Positions 26,634 through 38,804 of a DNA stretch of 64,000 nt are shown here, in pieces (position 1 is the first letter of the stretch; every line of letters starts with the position of its first letter). This DNA comes from Melioribacter roseus (GTDB lineage: Bacteria; Bacteroidota; Ignavibacteria; Ignavibacteriales; Melioribacteraceae). The DNA lies in the NCBI GenBank assembly GCA_020723165.1, contig DYJK01000003.1, positions 1 through 64,000 of the forward strand. The letters run 5' to 3'. The translations under genes were made by a program, and so were the position numbers. The notes beneath the pieces were generated by a model. The model made no database searches and was not told the origin of the DNA. It saw nothing but the letters and a program-made list of their open reading frames with translations.

Positions 26634-29600
26634 ATGAAATCCAAATCGGAAATATTAAAAAGCTTGCTGAATGAAAGAATCCTTCTTCTTGACGGATCGA
26701 TGGGAGTATTTATACAGAAATACAAATTATCCGAAGAACAATTTAGAGGGAATAGATTTAAGGATCACCAGGTTGATCTGAAAGGTAATAATGATATTCT
26801 TGTTCTGACTCAACCGGATATAATTAAGAATATTCATAATGAATATCTTGAAGCCGGATCGGATATAATCGAAACAAATACTTTCAACGGGACATCAATC
26901 TCGCAATCCGATTACAAAACCGATCATTTGATTTACGAGATAAACTACCAGGCAGCAAAAATTGCTAAGGTATCTGCTGACGAGTACACGCAAAAGAATC
27001 CGGATAAACCTCGCTTTGTTGCCGGTGCTTTAGGACCAACAAATAAAACACTCTCAATTTCACCAGACGTAAATGATCCCGGTTTCCGCTCTGTTACTTT
27101 CGATCAAGTTGCCAGTGCATTTAAGGAACAAGCAAATGGATTAATTGACGGCGGAGCTGATATTTTACTTGTTGAAACAATGATTGATACTTTGAACGCT
27201 AAAGCTGCACTGTTCGGCATTATGGAATTGATTGAAGAAAGAAATATTGATATACCAATTATGGTTTCAGGTTCGATAATTGATTTGAGCGGAAGAACAT
27301 TAAGCGGGCAGAACACTGAAGCGTTTTGGATCTCAGTCTCTCATACGAAAAATCTTTTGAGCGTTGGATTGAATTGCTCATTAGGCCCAAAACAAATGAG
27401 ACCTTTCATTTCGGAATTATCAAATATTGCAAATGTGTCCATCAGTCTCTATCCCAATGCCGGTTTGCCCAATGAATTCGGCGGTTATGATGAATCACCA
27501 GAATCAATGTATTCCGTTCTTGAAGAATTTGCAAAAGAAGGATGGCTTAATATTGTTGGCGGTTGCTGCGGTACTACACCCGATCATATACGTGCTTTTG
27601 CAGAAATAACTAAAAATCATCCGCCGAGAAAAATTCCTGAAGTTAAACCGTACTTACAACTAAGCGGGCTTGAGCCGCTAATATTTCGGCCTGATACAAA
27701 CTTTGTAAATATTGGCGAGCGGACTAATGTTACCGGTTCTAAAAAATTCGCAAGGTTAATAAAAGAAAATAGATTTGATGAAGCGCTTTCTGTTGCACGC
27801 GAACAAGTGGAAAATGGTGCACAGATTCTTGATGTAAACATGGATGAAGGATTGATTAATTCCGAAGAAGCAATGACGAAATTTCTCAATCTTATTTCTG
27901 CAGAACCGGATATTGCAAAAGTCCCGATAATGATCGATTCTTCTAAATGGTCTGTTATAGAAGCCGGGCTGAAATGTCTCCAGGGAAAAGGAATCGTAAA
28001 TTCTATCTCGCTTAAAGAAGGAGAAAAAATATTTAAGGAACATGCAAAGAAAATACTTAAGTATGGTGCAGCAGTTATTGTTATGTCATTTGATGAAGAA
28101 GGACAGGCTGATTCATTTGAAAGAAAAATCCGGATATGTGAACGTGCTTACAAAATTTTAACTGGTGAAATCGGTTTTTTGCCTCAAGATATAATTTTTG
28201 ATCCCAATATTTTTGCAATCGCTACCGGTATTGAAGAGCACAATCAATATGCACTCAATTATATAGAAGCAACAAAATGGATTAAAAAAAATCTGCCTTT
28301 ATCCAAAGTTAGTGGAGGTGTAAGCAATATTTCTTTCTCATTCCGTGGCAACGATACCATCCGGGAAGCAATGCATTCGGCATTCCTCTACCACGCAATA
28401 GAAGTCGGCATGGATATGGGGATTGTTAATGCTGGTCAGTTAGCTGTATATGAAGAAATTCCAAAAGATCTTTTAGAAAAAGTTGAAGACGTTATACTAA
28501 ATAGAAGGTCGGATGCAACCGAACAATTGATAGAATTTGCATCAACCATTTCGAAAGAAATAAAACGTGATCTAAAAGAAGATCAATGGCGGCAGCTTTC
28601 GGTTGAAGAAAGATTAAAACACTCTCTTGTAAAAGGAATAGTTGAATATATTGAACAAGATTTAGAAGAAGCAAGAAAAAAATATTCGTCACCGCTTAAA
28701 ATTATTGAAGGTCCGCTCATGGATGGTATGAACTACGTGGGTGATTTGTTCGGTTCGGGCAAAATGTTTTTACCACAAGTTGTAAAGAGTGCACGAGTTA
28801 TGAAAAAAGCGGTTGCATCACTAACTGCCTATCTCCCCACCTCTTTCCAACGGAAAGAGGAGAAAGCCGATTCGAAAAAAGAATATCAACATTATAAATT
28901 TGGATGGCAAACTGCTGATCCTTCTCTTTATAATAAATTAAAAGAATTTTCAGAGACCCATCGTAAAAGTCCTACAAAGGCTGAATCGATTTTATGGGAG
29001 TTTTTGAAATCGAAGAAGCTTAAGAATTATAAATTCAGAAGACAACATATAATAGGTTCTTATATTGTCGATTTTGTTTGCTTATCTCAAGCCTTAATAA
29101 TAGAAATTGATGGTTTAATCCATCAGTTACCTGAGAACAAACAATCAGATGAAGTCAGAACAAAATGGTTAAATGAAAATGGGTTTAAAGTAACACGATT
29201 TACAAATGATGAAGTGATCAACAATACAGAAGATGTCTTGAGTAAGATTTTAACAGAGATTAAAAAAAATGAATCTGAAAAAGTCCTCCCCTTAGGGGAG
29301 GATTTAGGTGGGGCTGGAACGATTTTACTAGCAACCGTTAAAGGAGACGTACATGATATCGGTAAAAACATCGTAGGTGTTGTGCTTGGCTGTAACAATT
29401 ATGACGTTATCGATTTGGGAGTTATGGTCCCTTCGGATAAAATACTCTCAGCCGCTGTTGAAAAAAATGTTGATATTATTGGGTTGAGCGGACTAATAAC
29501 ACCATCACTAGATGAGATGGTTCATGTTGCAAAAGAAATGGAAAAACTTGGATTAAAAATTCCCTTGCTGATTGGCGGCGCTACAACTTCCCGGATTCAT

Positions 29601-30767
29601 ACTGCGGTTAAAATTGCCCCGGAATATTCTCAAACAACAATTCATGTTCTTGATGCGTCAAAAAGCGTGGGAGTTGTAAGTAATCTTTTGAATAATCAAA
29701 AAGATACTTTTTCTGATCAAGTGAAAAGTGAATATGAAAAGTTGCGGCTCGACCATTCTAAAAAACAATTAGCTAAAGAGTTTTTGTCTATCGAACAAGC
29801 TAGGAAAAATAAATTAAAACTCGATTGGGAAAATTATTCTGTAGCCAAGCCGATTAAATTAGGAGTCTCTGTACTTAAGGATTATCCTCTTACTGAAATC
29901 AAAAATTATATTGATTGGACTCCATTCTTTTTAACATGGGAATTGAAAGGAAAATATCCGGACATTTTCAATAATAAAAATTTTGGTAACGAAGCAAAAA
30001 AAATATTTGAAGACGCTGACAAACTAATTGATCAAATTATCACTTCAAAATCTTTAGCTGCTAATGCAGTTGTAGGAATCTTCCCGGCAAATGCTGTTGA
30101 AGATGATATAGAAGTATATGCCGATGAAAATCGCAGTGGAATCTTAGAAGTATTCAACACTATCAGGCAGCAAGCAGTAAAATCGAAAGACATTCCTAAT
30201 ATAGCTCTTGCTGATTTTATGGCGCCTAAAAATGTCGGCGTAAAAGATTATTTAGGTTTGTTTGCGGTAACCGCCGGGTTTGGTGTTGAGAACCTTGTTA
30301 AAAAATTTGAAGACGAACACGATGATTATAGCTCAATAATGGTAAAAGCAATTGCAGACCGGTTTGTGGAAGCTTTTGCTGAATTACTACACGAAAAAGT
30401 AAGAAAAGAAATTTGGGGTTATGCATATAATGAAAAGTATTCCAATGAAGAGCTGATAGATGAAAAGTATTCCGGCATAAGACCGGCACCGGGTTACCCG
30501 GCTCAACCGGATCACACAGAGAAAATGAAAATCTGGAAACTGCTTGACGTTGAAAAAAATACCAATATTAAATTAACAGAAAGTTTAGCTATGTACCCGG
30601 CTGCCTCTGTTTGCGGGCTCTACTTTGCAAATCCCGGATCGAAATATTTCACGGTAGGTAAAATCGGCAAAGACCAGGTTGATGATTATAGAAAAAGGAA
30701 AGGAATTAGTTTAAAGGAAGCAGAGCGATGGTTGCGGCCAATACTCAACTATGACGAAATTGAATAA
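26634..30767 (+). CDS. metH: Cobalamin-dependent methionine synthase with an in-frame DUF559 nuclease insert
   Basis: A 1377-residue MetH, about 150 longer than the E. coli enzyme. Domain order: homocysteine-binding (about 10-330, zinc cysteines in GLNCSLGP and [11 protein letters not shown]), methyltetrahydrofolate-binding (345-620, [16 protein letters not shown]), cobalamin cap helices (650-734), then an inserted segment (about 735-893). The B12 domain follows ([11 protein letters not shown], axial His907) and then the AdoMet reactivation domain (1075-1377, [15 protein letters not shown]). The insert carries a DUF559 domain with its PD-(D/E)XK-type residues (IVDF, IIEIDG). It sits in the flexible cap-B12 linker, the one place where extra sequence should be tolerated. 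All MetH catalytic motifs remain, so the enzyme is probably active (inference). Confidence 0.95.
28835..29313 (+). mobile_element. DUF559-encoding element inserted in frame within metH
   Basis: The segment begins with CCCCACCT (28835-28842) and ends with its reverse complement AGGTGGGG (29306-29313). Just inside the left end is a perfect palindrome, CCTCTTTCC-AAC-GGAAAGAGG (28840-28860). Just inside the right end is CCTCCCCT-T-AGGGGAGG (29285-29301). Between them lies a DUF559 domain (about 28933-29268): [30 protein letters not shown] and a C-terminal [10 protein letters not shown]. This is the fold of Vsr-like PD-(D/E)XK nucleases, with catalytic D, E and D kept. The whole 479 bases are open in the metH frame. 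No ATG with a good ribosome-binding site starts the domain separately, so it is probably made only as part of MetH. Confidence 0.75.
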
Positions 30768-30789
30768 TCTAAATAAAGAAAGAAATTTT

Positions 30790-31263
30790 ATGACAAAAAA
30801 AACTTACCGCACCGGGGCGATCGGTGCATTAATGGATGAATACGAACGGGCTGCCGTAGATTTTAAGAGTGTAATTGAAAAATTATCTCAAGATAATTTT
30901 GTTAAAATTTATGATCCCAACACATTCGATGAAGATTGCCGTTCAATAATTACTATAACGAAACATGTTGTAGCTGCCGGTTACCGTTACGGAAATCAAA
31001 TTAGAATTTTCCTGGGATTGGTACCAATTATACCTGAATACAAAATTGAAACCTCCCGTGATGCAATCCGCGCACTCGATAAAGTTCTTATATTCACTGC
31101 AAATACCATAGAAGGCCATTGGAATATGACAGATGATCAAATAATTGCAACACGCCAGGAAACAAAGTGGGGTTTATACGATATCGAAATGATGTTCGAG
31201 CACGCAATTGTTCATCTCCTAAGACATAGAAGACAGATAGAAAAATTTCTAATTTCAGATTAA
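30790..31263 (+). CDS. DinB-family protein
   Basis: A protein of about 157 residues, predicted all-helical. The pattern resembles DinB/YfiT-like four-helix proteins: an N-terminal helix DEYERAAVDFKSVIEKL, a middle histidine in TKHVVAAGYRYG, and a C-terminal EHAIVHLLRHRRQIEKFL with two histidines spaced as in metal-binding DinB proteins. I prefer ATG 30790; an alternative at 30751 overlaps the end of metH and would add 13 residues unlike the family start. Family members are often thiol-dependent metalloenzymes or of unknown role. It follows metH closely and may be co-transcribed. Confidence 0.7.
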   Translation: MTKKTYRTGAIGALMDEYERAAVDFKSVIEKLSQDNFVKIYDPNTFDEDCRSIITITKHVVAAGYRYGNQIRIFLGLVPIIPEYKIETSRDAIRALDKVLIFTANTIEGHWNMTDDQIIATRQETKWGLYDIEMMFEHAIVHLLRHRRQIEKFLISD

Positions 31264-33102: not shown

Positions 33103-34524
33103 ATGAAAGGACAAAAAGATTTGATCGAGTTATTTGAAAGTTATACCGGAGAAAAATTAATTTCTTTCACTCCCCTTCCAGAATCTGGTTCCGCACGGAA
33201 ATATTTTAGATTGGTCTCCGCCGGTTATTCTATTATCGGCGCCTACAATCCGGATAAGAGAGAAAACAATTCGTTTATTTATTTAACCAGACATTTTAGT
33301 AAACATAAACTTAATGTACCATTGCTTCACAAAACAGATTTGAAAAAAGGGATATATCTTTTACAAGACCTGGGTGATACAACACTATTTTCTTTGCTGA
33401 ATAAAAATAGAGATAGTTCCGGTTTCTCAAATGAAATTATTGACTATTACCACCGTGCATTGGAAGCACTAATAAAATTCCAGGTAACGTCCTCTAAGGA
33501 TTTGAAATTTATTAACTGCTATCCCCGGCCTGAATTTGATCACCAGTCAATTAAATGGGATTTGAATTATTTCAAATATTACTTTTTAAAATTAGCAGAC
33601 ATTACTTTCGATGAACAGAAATTAGAAAACGATTTTAGTCTGTTAAGTAATCATCTGCTTGAGGCAGATCATAAATATTTTATGTACCGGGATTTTAATT
33701 CTCGCAATATCATGATAAAGGATAATGAATTATATTTTATCGATTATCAGGGCGGAAGAAAAGGAGCGCCGCAGTATGATGTTGCATCGTTGTTGTATGA
33801 TTCCAAAGCCGATCTTCCGCAGTCTTTAAGAGATGAATTGCTGTCATACTATCTAAAATCAATTTCGATTCACAAAAAAGTTGACCAAAGAAATTTCAAA
33901 AAATATTATTACCCGTATGTTCTTATAAGGTTACTGCAAATGTTCGGTGCTTACGGGTACCGCGGTTATTTTGAAGGTAAAGCACATTTTTTAAAGAGCA
34001 TTCCTTATGCAATAAGAAATTTAGAATATGTTCTGCCTAAGATTAAAATTAAAGTCCCCGAACTAAAAACAGTATTGGAAAAACTAATTTCCTCAGAACA
34101 ATTGAAGCAATTTAATGATACGGATACTTCATCAAACAAACTAACTATTCGCATCAATAGTTTTTCGTACCGTGATAAAATTCCATTTGATTTCACCGGT
34201 AATGGCGGAGGGTTTGTTTTTGACTGCCGTGCAATTCCGAATCCCGGCAGAATTGATGAATACAAACATTTAACTGGTAAAGATAAGCCGGTCCAGGATT
34301 TTCTCGATGCGCAATCCGAAGCACAAAGGTTTTTGAAAGAATCATTTGATATTGTAGAACAGTCGGTAGTTAACTATGCAGAAAATAAATGGACGGACCT
34401 AATGGTAAATTTCGGGTGTACCGGCGGTCAGCATCGTTCTGTCTATTGTGCAGAAAAATTAGCCGAGCACCTGAAAAGTAAACATGATGTTGTTGTTAGG
34501 TTAACTCATACAAGATTGGCATAA
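33103..34524 (+). CDS. Aminoglycoside phosphotransferase-like sugar kinase fused to a RapZ C-terminal domain
   Basis: A 473-residue fusion. Residues about 1-320 are an APH-fold kinase: GSARKYFRLV (nucleotide-binding loop), the Brenner-type YRDFNSRNIM (about 195, catalytic Asp) and YFIDYQGGRKGAPQYDV (metal-binding Asp). This is the pattern of AmgK, the anomeric kinase of MurNAc/GlcNAc. Residues about 345-473 match the C-terminal domain of RapZ (YvcJ): FVFDCRAIPNPGR (about 372) and FGCTGGQHRSV (about 437), without the RapZ P-loop half. In RapZ this domain binds glucosamine-6-phosphate and adaptor RNAs. A nucleotidyltransferase gene follows, so a sugar-1-phosphate to NDP-sugar route controlled by an amino-sugar signal is plausible. 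Confidence 0.85.
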   Translation: MKGQKDLIELFESYTGEKLISFTPLPESGSARKYFRLVSAGYSIIGAYNPDKRENNSFIYLTRHFSKHKLNVPLLHKTDLKKGIYLLQDLGDTTLFSLLNKNRDSSGFSNEIIDYYHRALEALIKFQVTSSKDLKFINCYPRPEFDHQSIKWDLNYFKYYFLKLADITFDEQKLENDFSLLSNHLLEADHKYFMYRDFNSRNIMIKDNELYFIDYQGGRKGAPQYDVASLLYDSKADLPQSLRDELLSYYLKSISIHKKVDQRNFKKYYYPYVLIRLLQMFGAYGYRGYFEGKAHFLKSIPYAIRNLEYVLPKIKIKVPELKTVLEKLISSEQLKQFNDTDTSSNKLTIRINSFSYRDKIPFDFTGNGGGFVFDCRAIPNPGRIDEYKHLTGKDKPVQDFLDAQSEAQRFLKESFDIVEQSVVNYAENKWTDLMVNFGCTGGQHRSVYCAEKLAEHLKSKHDVVVRLTHTRLA

Positions 34525-34594: not shown

Positions 34595-35323
34595 ATGAAA
34601 GCATTCATACTTGCAGCCGGGTTAGGTACAAGATTACAGCCGCTTACAAATACAAAACCGAAAGCTCTTATAGAAATTGCTGGTAAAACTTTACTTGAGC
34701 TAACAATCTCGCGATTGGTTTCATACGGCATTAAACAAATAATCATAAATGTGCATCACTTTGCTGATCAAGTAAAAAGTTATCTAAAAGAAAAAAATAA
34801 TTTCGGAATTGACATAACTCTTTCCGATGAACGTAAACAATTATTAGACACCGGCGGCGGACTAAAAAAAGTATCATGGTATTTTGATGATGGTAAACCT
34901 TTTCTTATTCATAATACAGATGTTCTCACAAATATCGACCTCGGTCAATTAATCAATTATCACAAATCAGAAGAACAAATTGCAACGCTTGCAGTGCAAA
35001 AAAGAAAATCATCCCGTTATTTTTTATTCGATAATGAGAAGAATCTCTGCGGCTGGGAAAATGTTATGACCGGCGAAAAAAAAATAACACGGACCCCGAA
35101 GGGACAATTGCAGTCTTTCGCATTCAGTGGTATACAAATAGCCGAACCAAAAATGTTTAACCTTATGCCTAATACCGAAGTATTTTCTATCGTTGATTTA
35201 TATTTGTCGATCGCATCTAATTATCGAATAACTTATTTTGATCATACAAATTCCATTTTCGTTGATCTGGGCAAAAAAGAAAATTTAATCGAAGCAGAAA
35301 AAATCCTTAATAAAATTATTTGA
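34595..35323 (+). CDS. Sugar-1-phosphate nucleotidyltransferase (MurU-like)
   Basis: A 242-residue NTP-transferase. It has the signature AGLGTRLQPLTNTKPKALI at the N-terminus, the sugar-binding DTGGGL, the metal-binding HNTDVLTNIDL and a C-terminal VDLGKKENLIEAE. It resembles MurU/RmlA-type enzymes, which form NDP-sugars from a sugar 1-phosphate and NTP. In the AmgK-MurU pathway the kinase makes MurNAc-1-P and MurU makes UDP-MurNAc for cell-wall recycling. The AmgK-like fusion gene is directly upstream, which supports such a pair. The sugar and nucleotide remain unproven. Confidence 0.87.
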   Translation: MKAFILAAGLGTRLQPLTNTKPKALIEIAGKTLLELTISRLVSYGIKQIIINVHHFADQVKSYLKEKNNFGIDITLSDERKQLLDTGGGLKKVSWYFDDGKPFLIHNTDVLTNIDLGQLINYHKSEEQIATLAVQKRKSSRYFLFDNEKNLCGWENVMTGEKKITRTPKGQLQSFAFSGIQIAEPKMFNLMPNTEVFSIVDLYLSIASNYRITYFDHTNSIFVDLGKKENLIEAEKILNKII

Positions 35324-35330
35324 GGTAATT

Positions 35331-35810
35331 ATGACACGATCAGAGCATCTCGAAAATTTTAGAAACGGTTTCGAAAAACTTAAAGCCGCTTTGCAAAATT
35401 ATCCAAGAAATATTTTCGATTACAAACCTTCACCCCAAAATTGGAGTATCCACGAAATAATAATCCACATGGCCGATAGCGAAGTTAATTCATATGCTAG
35501 ATGCAGAAAAATAATTGCCGAATCCGGCTCTTCAATTATGGCATACGACCAGGATAAGTGGGCTGTTGATCTAAATTATAATAACCAGGATATGGATGTT
35601 GCCCTTGATCTATTTGGCTATCTTAGAATTGCAACATATGAATTATTGAAAATGACCCCGGAAGAAAAATGGAATAACTACATGCTTCATCCCGAAAGAG
35701 GAAAAATTACACTTAATGAATGGCTTACAATTTATTCGGAACATGTTGATGTTCACATAAATCAAATGAATAGAAACTTTGATGAATGGCACAAAACCAA
35801 AAAAAACTAA
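35331..35810 (+). CDS. DinB superfamily protein
   Basis: A 159-residue four-helix protein with the DinB-type histidine triad: WSIHEIIIHMADSE (first ligand helix), then a C-terminal YSEHVDVHINQMNR. The ALQNYPRNIFDYKPSPQNWSI opening is typical of DinB_2 proteins, some of which are metal-dependent hydrolases or thiol transferases. A GAGG precedes the ATG, which is 7 bases after the nucleotidyltransferase stop. Not closely related to the DinB protein at 30790. Function unknown. Confidence 0.82.
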   Translation: MTRSEHLENFRNGFEKLKAALQNYPRNIFDYKPSPQNWSIHEIIIHMADSEVNSYARCRKIIAESGSSIMAYDQDKWAVDLNYNNQDMDVALDLFGYLRIATYELLKMTPEEKWNNYMLHPERGKITLNEWLTIYSEHVDVHINQMNRNFDEWHKTKKN

Positions 35811-38264: not shown

Positions 38265-38804
38265 ATGATATTCGATATACTCAAACATGCTGAACTTTAC
38301 TACCCTTTACACGAAAAAATGAAAATTGCTTTTGACTACCTAAGGAATAATGATTTTGATAACGTTGAACCGGGCAATTATGAAATAGATGGAGAAGATG
38401 TTTATGCTATAGTTCAACAATATGATTCCAAACCTCTTTCAGCCGGTAAATGGGAAGCTCATAAAAAATATTTGGACATACAATACGTTCATTCCGGCAA
38501 AGAAAAAATGGGATATTCCAATTCCCAGAAAATGATCGTTACCCAGGAATACAGTAGTTACAACGATATAATGTTTTTGAAAGGTGAAGGAAGTTTTCTA
38601 ATTGCTGAAGCCGGCTCATTTGCTATTTTCCTTCCGACAGATATTCACATGCCGGGTATTGCACTAAATTTATCAACGCCAGTAAAAAAAGTTGTAGTTA
38701 AAATCAAAATTTCCGGCGCACCCGAAGAAGCTGAAACAAAATCCGAAAGCGATATTGAACCTGAACAAAAGTCTGAAGGTGAAAGCGATACAACAGCTCA
38801 ATGA
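38265..38804 (+). CDS. YhcH/YjgK/YiaL family (DUF386) protein
   Basis: A 179-residue cupin-fold protein. Residues about 1-150 match the YhcH/EbgC family: GNYEIDGEDVYAIVQQYDSKP, the metal-site segment WEAHKKYLDIQYVHSGKEKMG, and FLPTDIHMPGIAL with its histidine. Family members are thought to act in catabolism of sialic acid or other sugars, as epimerases or sugar-binding proteins. The last 30 residues are an acidic, low-complexity tail (E, S and D rich) not part of the fold. It overlaps the next gene by ATGA. Confidence 0.87.
   Translation: MIFDILKHAELYYPLHEKMKIAFDYLRNNDFDNVEPGNYEIDGEDVYAIVQQYDSKPLSAGKWEAHKKYLDIQYVHSGKEKMGYSNSQKMIVTQEYSSYNDIMFLKGEGSFLIAEAGSFAIFLPTDIHMPGIALNLSTPVKKVVVKIKISGAPEEAETKSESDIEPEQKSEGESDTTAQ

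Follow-up and report, generated by a model that had tools for sequence, protein, structure and literature searches.

The window, by which we mean the whole 64,000-nucleotide stretch of Melioribacter roseus DNA analysed here, contains a single open frame (33103-34524, forward strand; 473 aa, ATG to stop) that encodes an APH-fold sugar kinase joined in frame to the C-terminal domain of RapZ (RapZ-C), and a gene for a MurU-like nucleotidyltransferase starts 70 bp after it. The features of these two genes are listed below by their positions in the window.

33103-34524, forward strand: fusion of an AmgK-like kinase and the RapZ C-terminal domain (open frame, Pfam, NCBIfam; model pLDDT 93.8)
33103-34107, forward strand: AmgK-like APH-fold kinase domain, residues 1-335 (APH, PF01636, at residues 22-251; closest fold 3csv)
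33688-33708, forward strand: kinase catalytic loop R196-D197-F-x-x-x-N202 (no variation at R196, D197 or N202 among 66 relatives)
33739-33750, forward strand: kinase metal-binding motif I-D214-Y-Q216 (no variation at D214 or Q216 among 66 relatives)
34141-34512, forward strand: RapZ C-terminal domain, residues 347-470 (PF22740, E 4.5e-34; TM 0.86/0.91 to 5o5s)
34198-34212, forward strand: G-N-G-G-G insertion, residues 366-370, specific to the kinase-linked clade and absent from the true RapZ sequences read
34240-34251, forward strand: N-P-G-R, residues 380-383, with Gly382 aligned to E. coli RapZ His190
34417-34440, forward strand: putative anion-binding loop C439-T-G-G-Q-H-R445-S446, a CX5RS motif (C, GG, H, R and S invariant; structure from the model)
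34595-35323, forward strand: MurU-like sugar-1-phosphate nucleotidyltransferase, 242 aa (NF045761, E 1.2e-38)

Both halves of the fusion score over the curated Pfam cut-offs (APH, E 5.6e-13; RapZ-C, named PapZ_C in Pfam, E 4.5e-34), and the Pfam domains place the APH kinase where RapZ has its N-terminal P-loop NTPase domain, which is absent. In AlphaFold2 models (mean pLDDT 93.8 for the whole protein, 94.6 for RapZ-C modelled alone) the best structural match of the kinase is 3csv, an AmgK-like APH protein, and RapZ-C recovers the fold of the E. coli RapZ C-terminal domain (5o5s; Foldseek TM 0.86/0.91, rmsd 1.6, 36% identity). The original prediction, that an AmgK-like kinase is fused here to the ligand-sensing domain of RapZ, is thus borne out by Pfam, NCBIfam and fold matches alike. 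Chance fusion or assembly error was ruled out because the identical architecture recurs across many genomes (26 fully fused genomes in two HMM-based, motif-independent samples, together with named contigs), and we treat the architecture as established. A genome-wide profile search found no true RapZ in the window's own genome, where the fusion is the sole copy of PF22740.

The kinase domain has an APH-type fold with the catalytic Asp and Asn and the metal-binding Asp in place, as judged by Pfam, alignment and fold match. The NCBIfam AmgK models match it at E 2.5e-20 (72.8 bits, equivalog cut-off 550) and E 2.8e-14 (53.2 bits, cut-off 500), and because these scores fall far under the equivalog cut-offs 'AmgK-like' is a fitting description, but 'AmgK' is not established by sequence. 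For the downstream gene MurU models are the best NCBIfam match (133 bits, cut-off 250), and 55 of 77 named loci have a MurU-like homologue directly after the kinase gene, with a median gap of 5 bp and always on the same strand, so the predicted pairing with a MurU-like enzyme was confirmed and its linkage is established. Besides this gene, no neighbour recurs in more than 6 of the 77 named loci, and no other recycling gene is linked there.

Several further genes of the window deserve mention in their own right. Two DinB-superfamily proteins are encoded near the fusion (30751-31263, a weak match under the Pfam cut-off, and 35331-35810), and both genes also occur in the fusion neighbourhood of one relative (G019, locus L149). 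The gene at 38265-38804 encodes a YhcH/YjgK/YiaL (DUF386) protein whose C-terminal tail is acidic; this family often accompanies sialic-acid or amino-sugar genes. The MetH frame (26634-30767, 1377 aa) contains an in-frame DUF559 domain (PF04480, E 6.6e-35), inserted at about 28881-29321 between the B12-binding cap and the B12-binding domain. The same insert appears at 63-71% identity in frames of 1375-1402 aa in four relatives (G074, G353, G359, G363), that of G074 being MetH-like at its start and end, and the other relatives searched yielded no MetH-type frame with the insert; the scattered occurrence resembles that of an in-frame mobile element. Other long DUF559 frames (L188-L190) look by eye like putative type I restriction subunits.

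To describe the distribution of RapZ-C we used an HMM, not a motif, on a phylum sample of 148 genomes. Twenty genomes contain the domain, fused in frame with the kinase in 17 and encoded by a separate gene directly beside the kinase gene in 3 (G031, G012 and G095; the order in the first two is kinase, RapZ-C, MurU), and RapZ of normal architecture was found in none of these 20. A class-level sample yielded 13 RapZ-C genomes, 11 fused, 1 split and 1 ending at a contig edge with a MurU-like gene beside RapZ-C; overall, 20/20 and 12/13 RapZ-C genomes of the two samples have the domain fused to the kinase or encoded next to it. The expectation that RapZ-C is normally attached to a P-loop NTPase holds elsewhere, but in this phylum the domain is as a rule paired with the kinase. 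When the distribution of the fusion was checked in a wider scan (one genome per species), at least 586 confirmed relatives were found in at least six phylum-level groups; the best 80 of these include members of Ignavibacteria, Calditrichia, Bacteroidales, Chitinophagaceae, Elusimicrobia, Acidobacteriota, Gemmatimonadales and Delongbacteria, with Bacteroides, Parabacteroides, Phocaeicola and Tannerella as the Bacteroidales genera among them. One Acidobacteriota and one Elusimicrobiota genome encode the fusion beside a normal-length RapZ, a coexistence that rules out the fusion as a replacement of true RapZ.

All kinase-linked copies, fused and split, form one clade in the RapZ-C tree (support 100/100), apart from true RapZ as represented by plasmid records, E. 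coli K-12 and the two co-resident genomes. The split copies are nested at two separate places in this clade, indicating two independent splits, and the fused copy nearest to the split one of G031 comes from the same genus (G124). A close relative (G009) and about 29 members of family f17 have the AmgK-like kinase without RapZ-C, so the kinase as such can do without the domain. The ancestry of the kinase-linked RapZ-C is established; its pairing with the kinase is genuine, ancient and widespread among Bacteroidota-type bacteria. Stand-alone RapZ-C-like proteins occur on Streptomyces and Planobispora plasmids (L139, 2956-3495; L140, 3001-3480; L141, 3013-3393); they are annotated as RNase adapter RapZ, keep C-x-G-G-x-H-R, and form a long-branched clade of their own.

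The pocket of E. coli RapZ is formed by H190, T248, G249, H252 and R253 (PMC5737377), with C247 near it; its loop binds sulfate, malonate and probably GlcN6P, and the Ala mutant of H190 is inactive (PMC9841335). Four of the five residues are kept in the fusion (T440, G441, H444, R445), as is the equivalent of C247 (C439), so that the loss of GlcN6P-contact residues is confined to H190, replaced by Gly382 in the fusion and by Gly in every kinase-linked relative read, where the next residue is nearly always Arg or Lys. This established loss does not by itself exclude ligand binding, since the position is His or Tyr among the true RapZ sequences read. A GNGGG-type insert lies beside the pocket, before V-F-D, in the kinase-linked relatives, and is lacking in E. 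coli RapZ. The loop reads C-[TS]-G-G-x-H-R-S in the kinase-linked relatives read, and its conservation is established by all 20 HMM-found copies, which constitute the unbiased set (loci L021-L100 were found by motif patterns, and motif conservation there is biased). Together the conserved loop residues, the change of H190 to Gly and the insert suggest that the phosphate end of the site was kept and the sugar end rebuilt. The basic C-terminal RNA-binding tail of Enterobacteriaceae RapZ is missing, the fusion ending in ...VVVRLTHTRLA. At the level of sequence, RapZ-C of the fusion is shown to be a dedicated clade that has kept the predicted phosphate-binding loop.

These features bear on the switch originally proposed, in which GlcN6P, sensed by RapZ-C, would act allosterically on the kinase fused to it. 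The retained phosphate loop favours it, but the Gly at the H190 position and the GNGGG insert weaken the specificity for GlcN6P, which these residues make no more than a possible ligand. The need for fusion is weakened as well, because two lineages encode RapZ-C in a gene of its own beside the kinase gene and a covalent link is thus not required. A switch of this general kind is possible.

MurQ etherase represents the other known MurNAc route, and its distribution is nearly complementary to that of the kinase. Across the 148 genomes 97 have MurQ only, 42 have the kinase (any form) only, 8 have both and 1 has neither (Fisher p about 1e-27, uncorrected for kinship, with about 30 of the kinase-only genomes belonging to the single family f17), and the 14 genomes of the window's own family divide perfectly into 6 kinase-only and 8 MurQ-only. 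This complementarity is established; combined with the invariant catalytic residues, it supports MurNAc as the kinase substrate but is not proof, and it lends weight to the predicted place of the fusion in cell-wall-sugar salvage. Tannerella forsythia, which is without MurA/MurB, must make UDP-MurNAc from free MurNAc by a further route, and the fusion in a Tannerella-genus genome (L063) fits such salvage.

The kinase is probably a MurNAc kinase, and we infer that its partner domain binds a phosphosugar. In the reading we prefer, to which we give an even chance, the protein is an anomeric kinase for MurNAc whose partner domain binds a phosphosugar, most likely for regulation. The kinase domain would make a sugar-1-phosphate in an AmgK/MurU-type salvage of MurNAc (or MurNAc/GlcNAc), and the enzyme encoded by the next gene would convert it to the UDP-sugar; RapZ-C would most likely bind a hexosamine 6-phosphate, which need not be GlcN6P, and would thereby adjust the kinase in cis where the two are fused and in trans where they are separate. 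If the kinase assignment is right, MurNAc handling in genomes without MurQ is explained. RefSeq plasmid records name such fusions 'RNase adapter RapZ', a label that hides a probable MurNAc kinase in a conserved two-gene salvage operon, which Bacteroides, Parabacteroides, Phocaeicola and Tannerella share with many phyla from the environment. With an RNA-binding tail of the GlmY/GlmZ type apparently missing, the system offers a setting for asking about the original job of the domain, whether sugar-phosphate sensing or hydrolysis. The open literature searched contained no mention of AmgK and RapZ together, nor one linking RapZ to CX5R or to protein tyrosine phosphatases.

The leading alternative, unlikely in our estimate, is that RapZ-C acts as a Cys-based phosphatase through C439 and R445. 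Dephosphorylating MurNAc-6P (or GlcNAc-6P/GlcN-6P) at position 6, it would pass the free sugar on to the kinase in the same protein and take the place of the HAD phosphatase MupP in a two-step relay from 6-P to 1-P on one chain; the Pseudomonas route runs AnmK-MupP-AmgK-MurU. Cys-based phosphatases have a CX5R loop between a strand and a helix, and in the AlphaFold2 model the CX5RS loop lies between strand 432-439, ending at Cys439, and helix 445-460, starting at Arg445. But CX5R is a short motif, no general acid was identified (D363 and D374 are invariant Asp candidates), and neither a phosphatase among the Foldseek hits shown nor a P-loop alignment with E. coli Wzb was found. Common descent with low-molecular-weight phosphatases was ruled out, as the RapZ-C and Wzb profiles could not be meaningfully aligned and the motif alone is alike. 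From the experimental literature, C247A and C247S both abolish the activity of E. coli RapZ, for which the authors suggest a catalytic -SH, and a likely 'chemically transformed product' is reported in a crystal with GlcN6P. Phosphatase activity is reported for B. subtilis YvcJ, and the title of a paper cited beside YvcJ among studies of RapZ homologues names it for HpaP, but that of YvcJ could stem from its P-loop half.

The genomic context of this phosphatase reading is similarly divided. RapZ-C is present in 6/6 genomes with AnmK and without MurQ, where MurNAc-6P would have to be dephosphorylated before the kinase could use it, and kinases without RapZ-C have AnmK in 0/30 (in the 148-genome sample these 30 never occur with MurQ either). 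No phylum-sample genome reaches the cut-off of the MupP model (NF009696), and 4 of the 6 genomes have only weak MupP-like HADs. This must be tempered by the strictness of that cut-off, under which Caulobacter also falls, by the several HAD phosphatases in RapZ-C genomes, and by the window's genome and five relatives, which have RapZ-C and neither AnmK nor MurQ. AnmK as an obligatory partner was ruled out by its absence from 6/20 RapZ-C genomes, the window's own included. HADs are closer to MupP in kinase genomes without RapZ-C (median -log10 E 25.8 versus 15.5 with RapZ-C, a comparison confounded by kinship); family f17 (e.g. G010, G106), with an AmgK-like kinase and without RapZ-C, AnmK or MurQ, has the sample's nearest HAD matches to the MupP model. 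The full proposal, a Cys-dependent hexosamine-6-phosphate phosphatase that forms with the kinase a bifunctional relay replacing MupP in Bacteroidota-type bacteria, we regard as doubtful; were the phosphatase reading true, E. coli RapZ would have evolved from, or still be, an enzyme. That RapZ-C serves instead as a module for oligomerisation or RNA binding and has no phosphosugar function is quite improbable: the E. coli domain binds RNA and dimerises via F181 and D182, conserved here as F373 and D374, but the fusion has lost the RNA-binding tail along with most of the basic contact residues, and dimerisation needs no invariant anion loop. We consider it very improbable that the kinase and MurU-like pair makes another UDP-sugar, destined for a glycan or capsule and unconnected with MurNAc; both proteins fall under the AmgK and MurU equivalog cut-offs and no further recycling gene is linked at the named loci, but the near-exclusion of MurQ and the Tannerella case argue against it.

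Among the closest known systems, AmgK of Pseudomonas and Caulobacter is an anomeric MurNAc/GlcNAc kinase that has in common with the fusion the APH-type kinase with its catalytic residues, the 3csv fold and a MurU-like gene next to it; the fusion differs in its C-terminal RapZ domain, in scoring well under the AmgK equivalogs and in the absence of AnmK from its own genome. MurU (MurNAc-1-phosphate uridylyltransferase) is the best match of the downstream gene, but at 133 bits against a cut-off of 250, and its substrate assignment is a prediction. MupP, the MurNAc-6P phosphatase, would correspond to RapZ-C in the step filled if the latter were a phosphatase, but has a HAD fold unrelated to RapZ-C, and its cut-off is met by no phylum-sample genome. 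With RapZ (YhbJ/YvcJ) the fusion shares the C-terminal fold (TM 0.86/0.91 to 5o5s, 36-37% identity) and the anion loop C-T-G-G-x-H-R-S. It differs from RapZ in having no P-loop NTPase and no Lys/Arg RNA-binding tail, in the change of His190 to Gly and the GNGGG insert, and in forming a separate clade (support 100/100) whose kinase-linked members coexist with true RapZ in one Acidobacteriota and one Elusimicrobiota genome.
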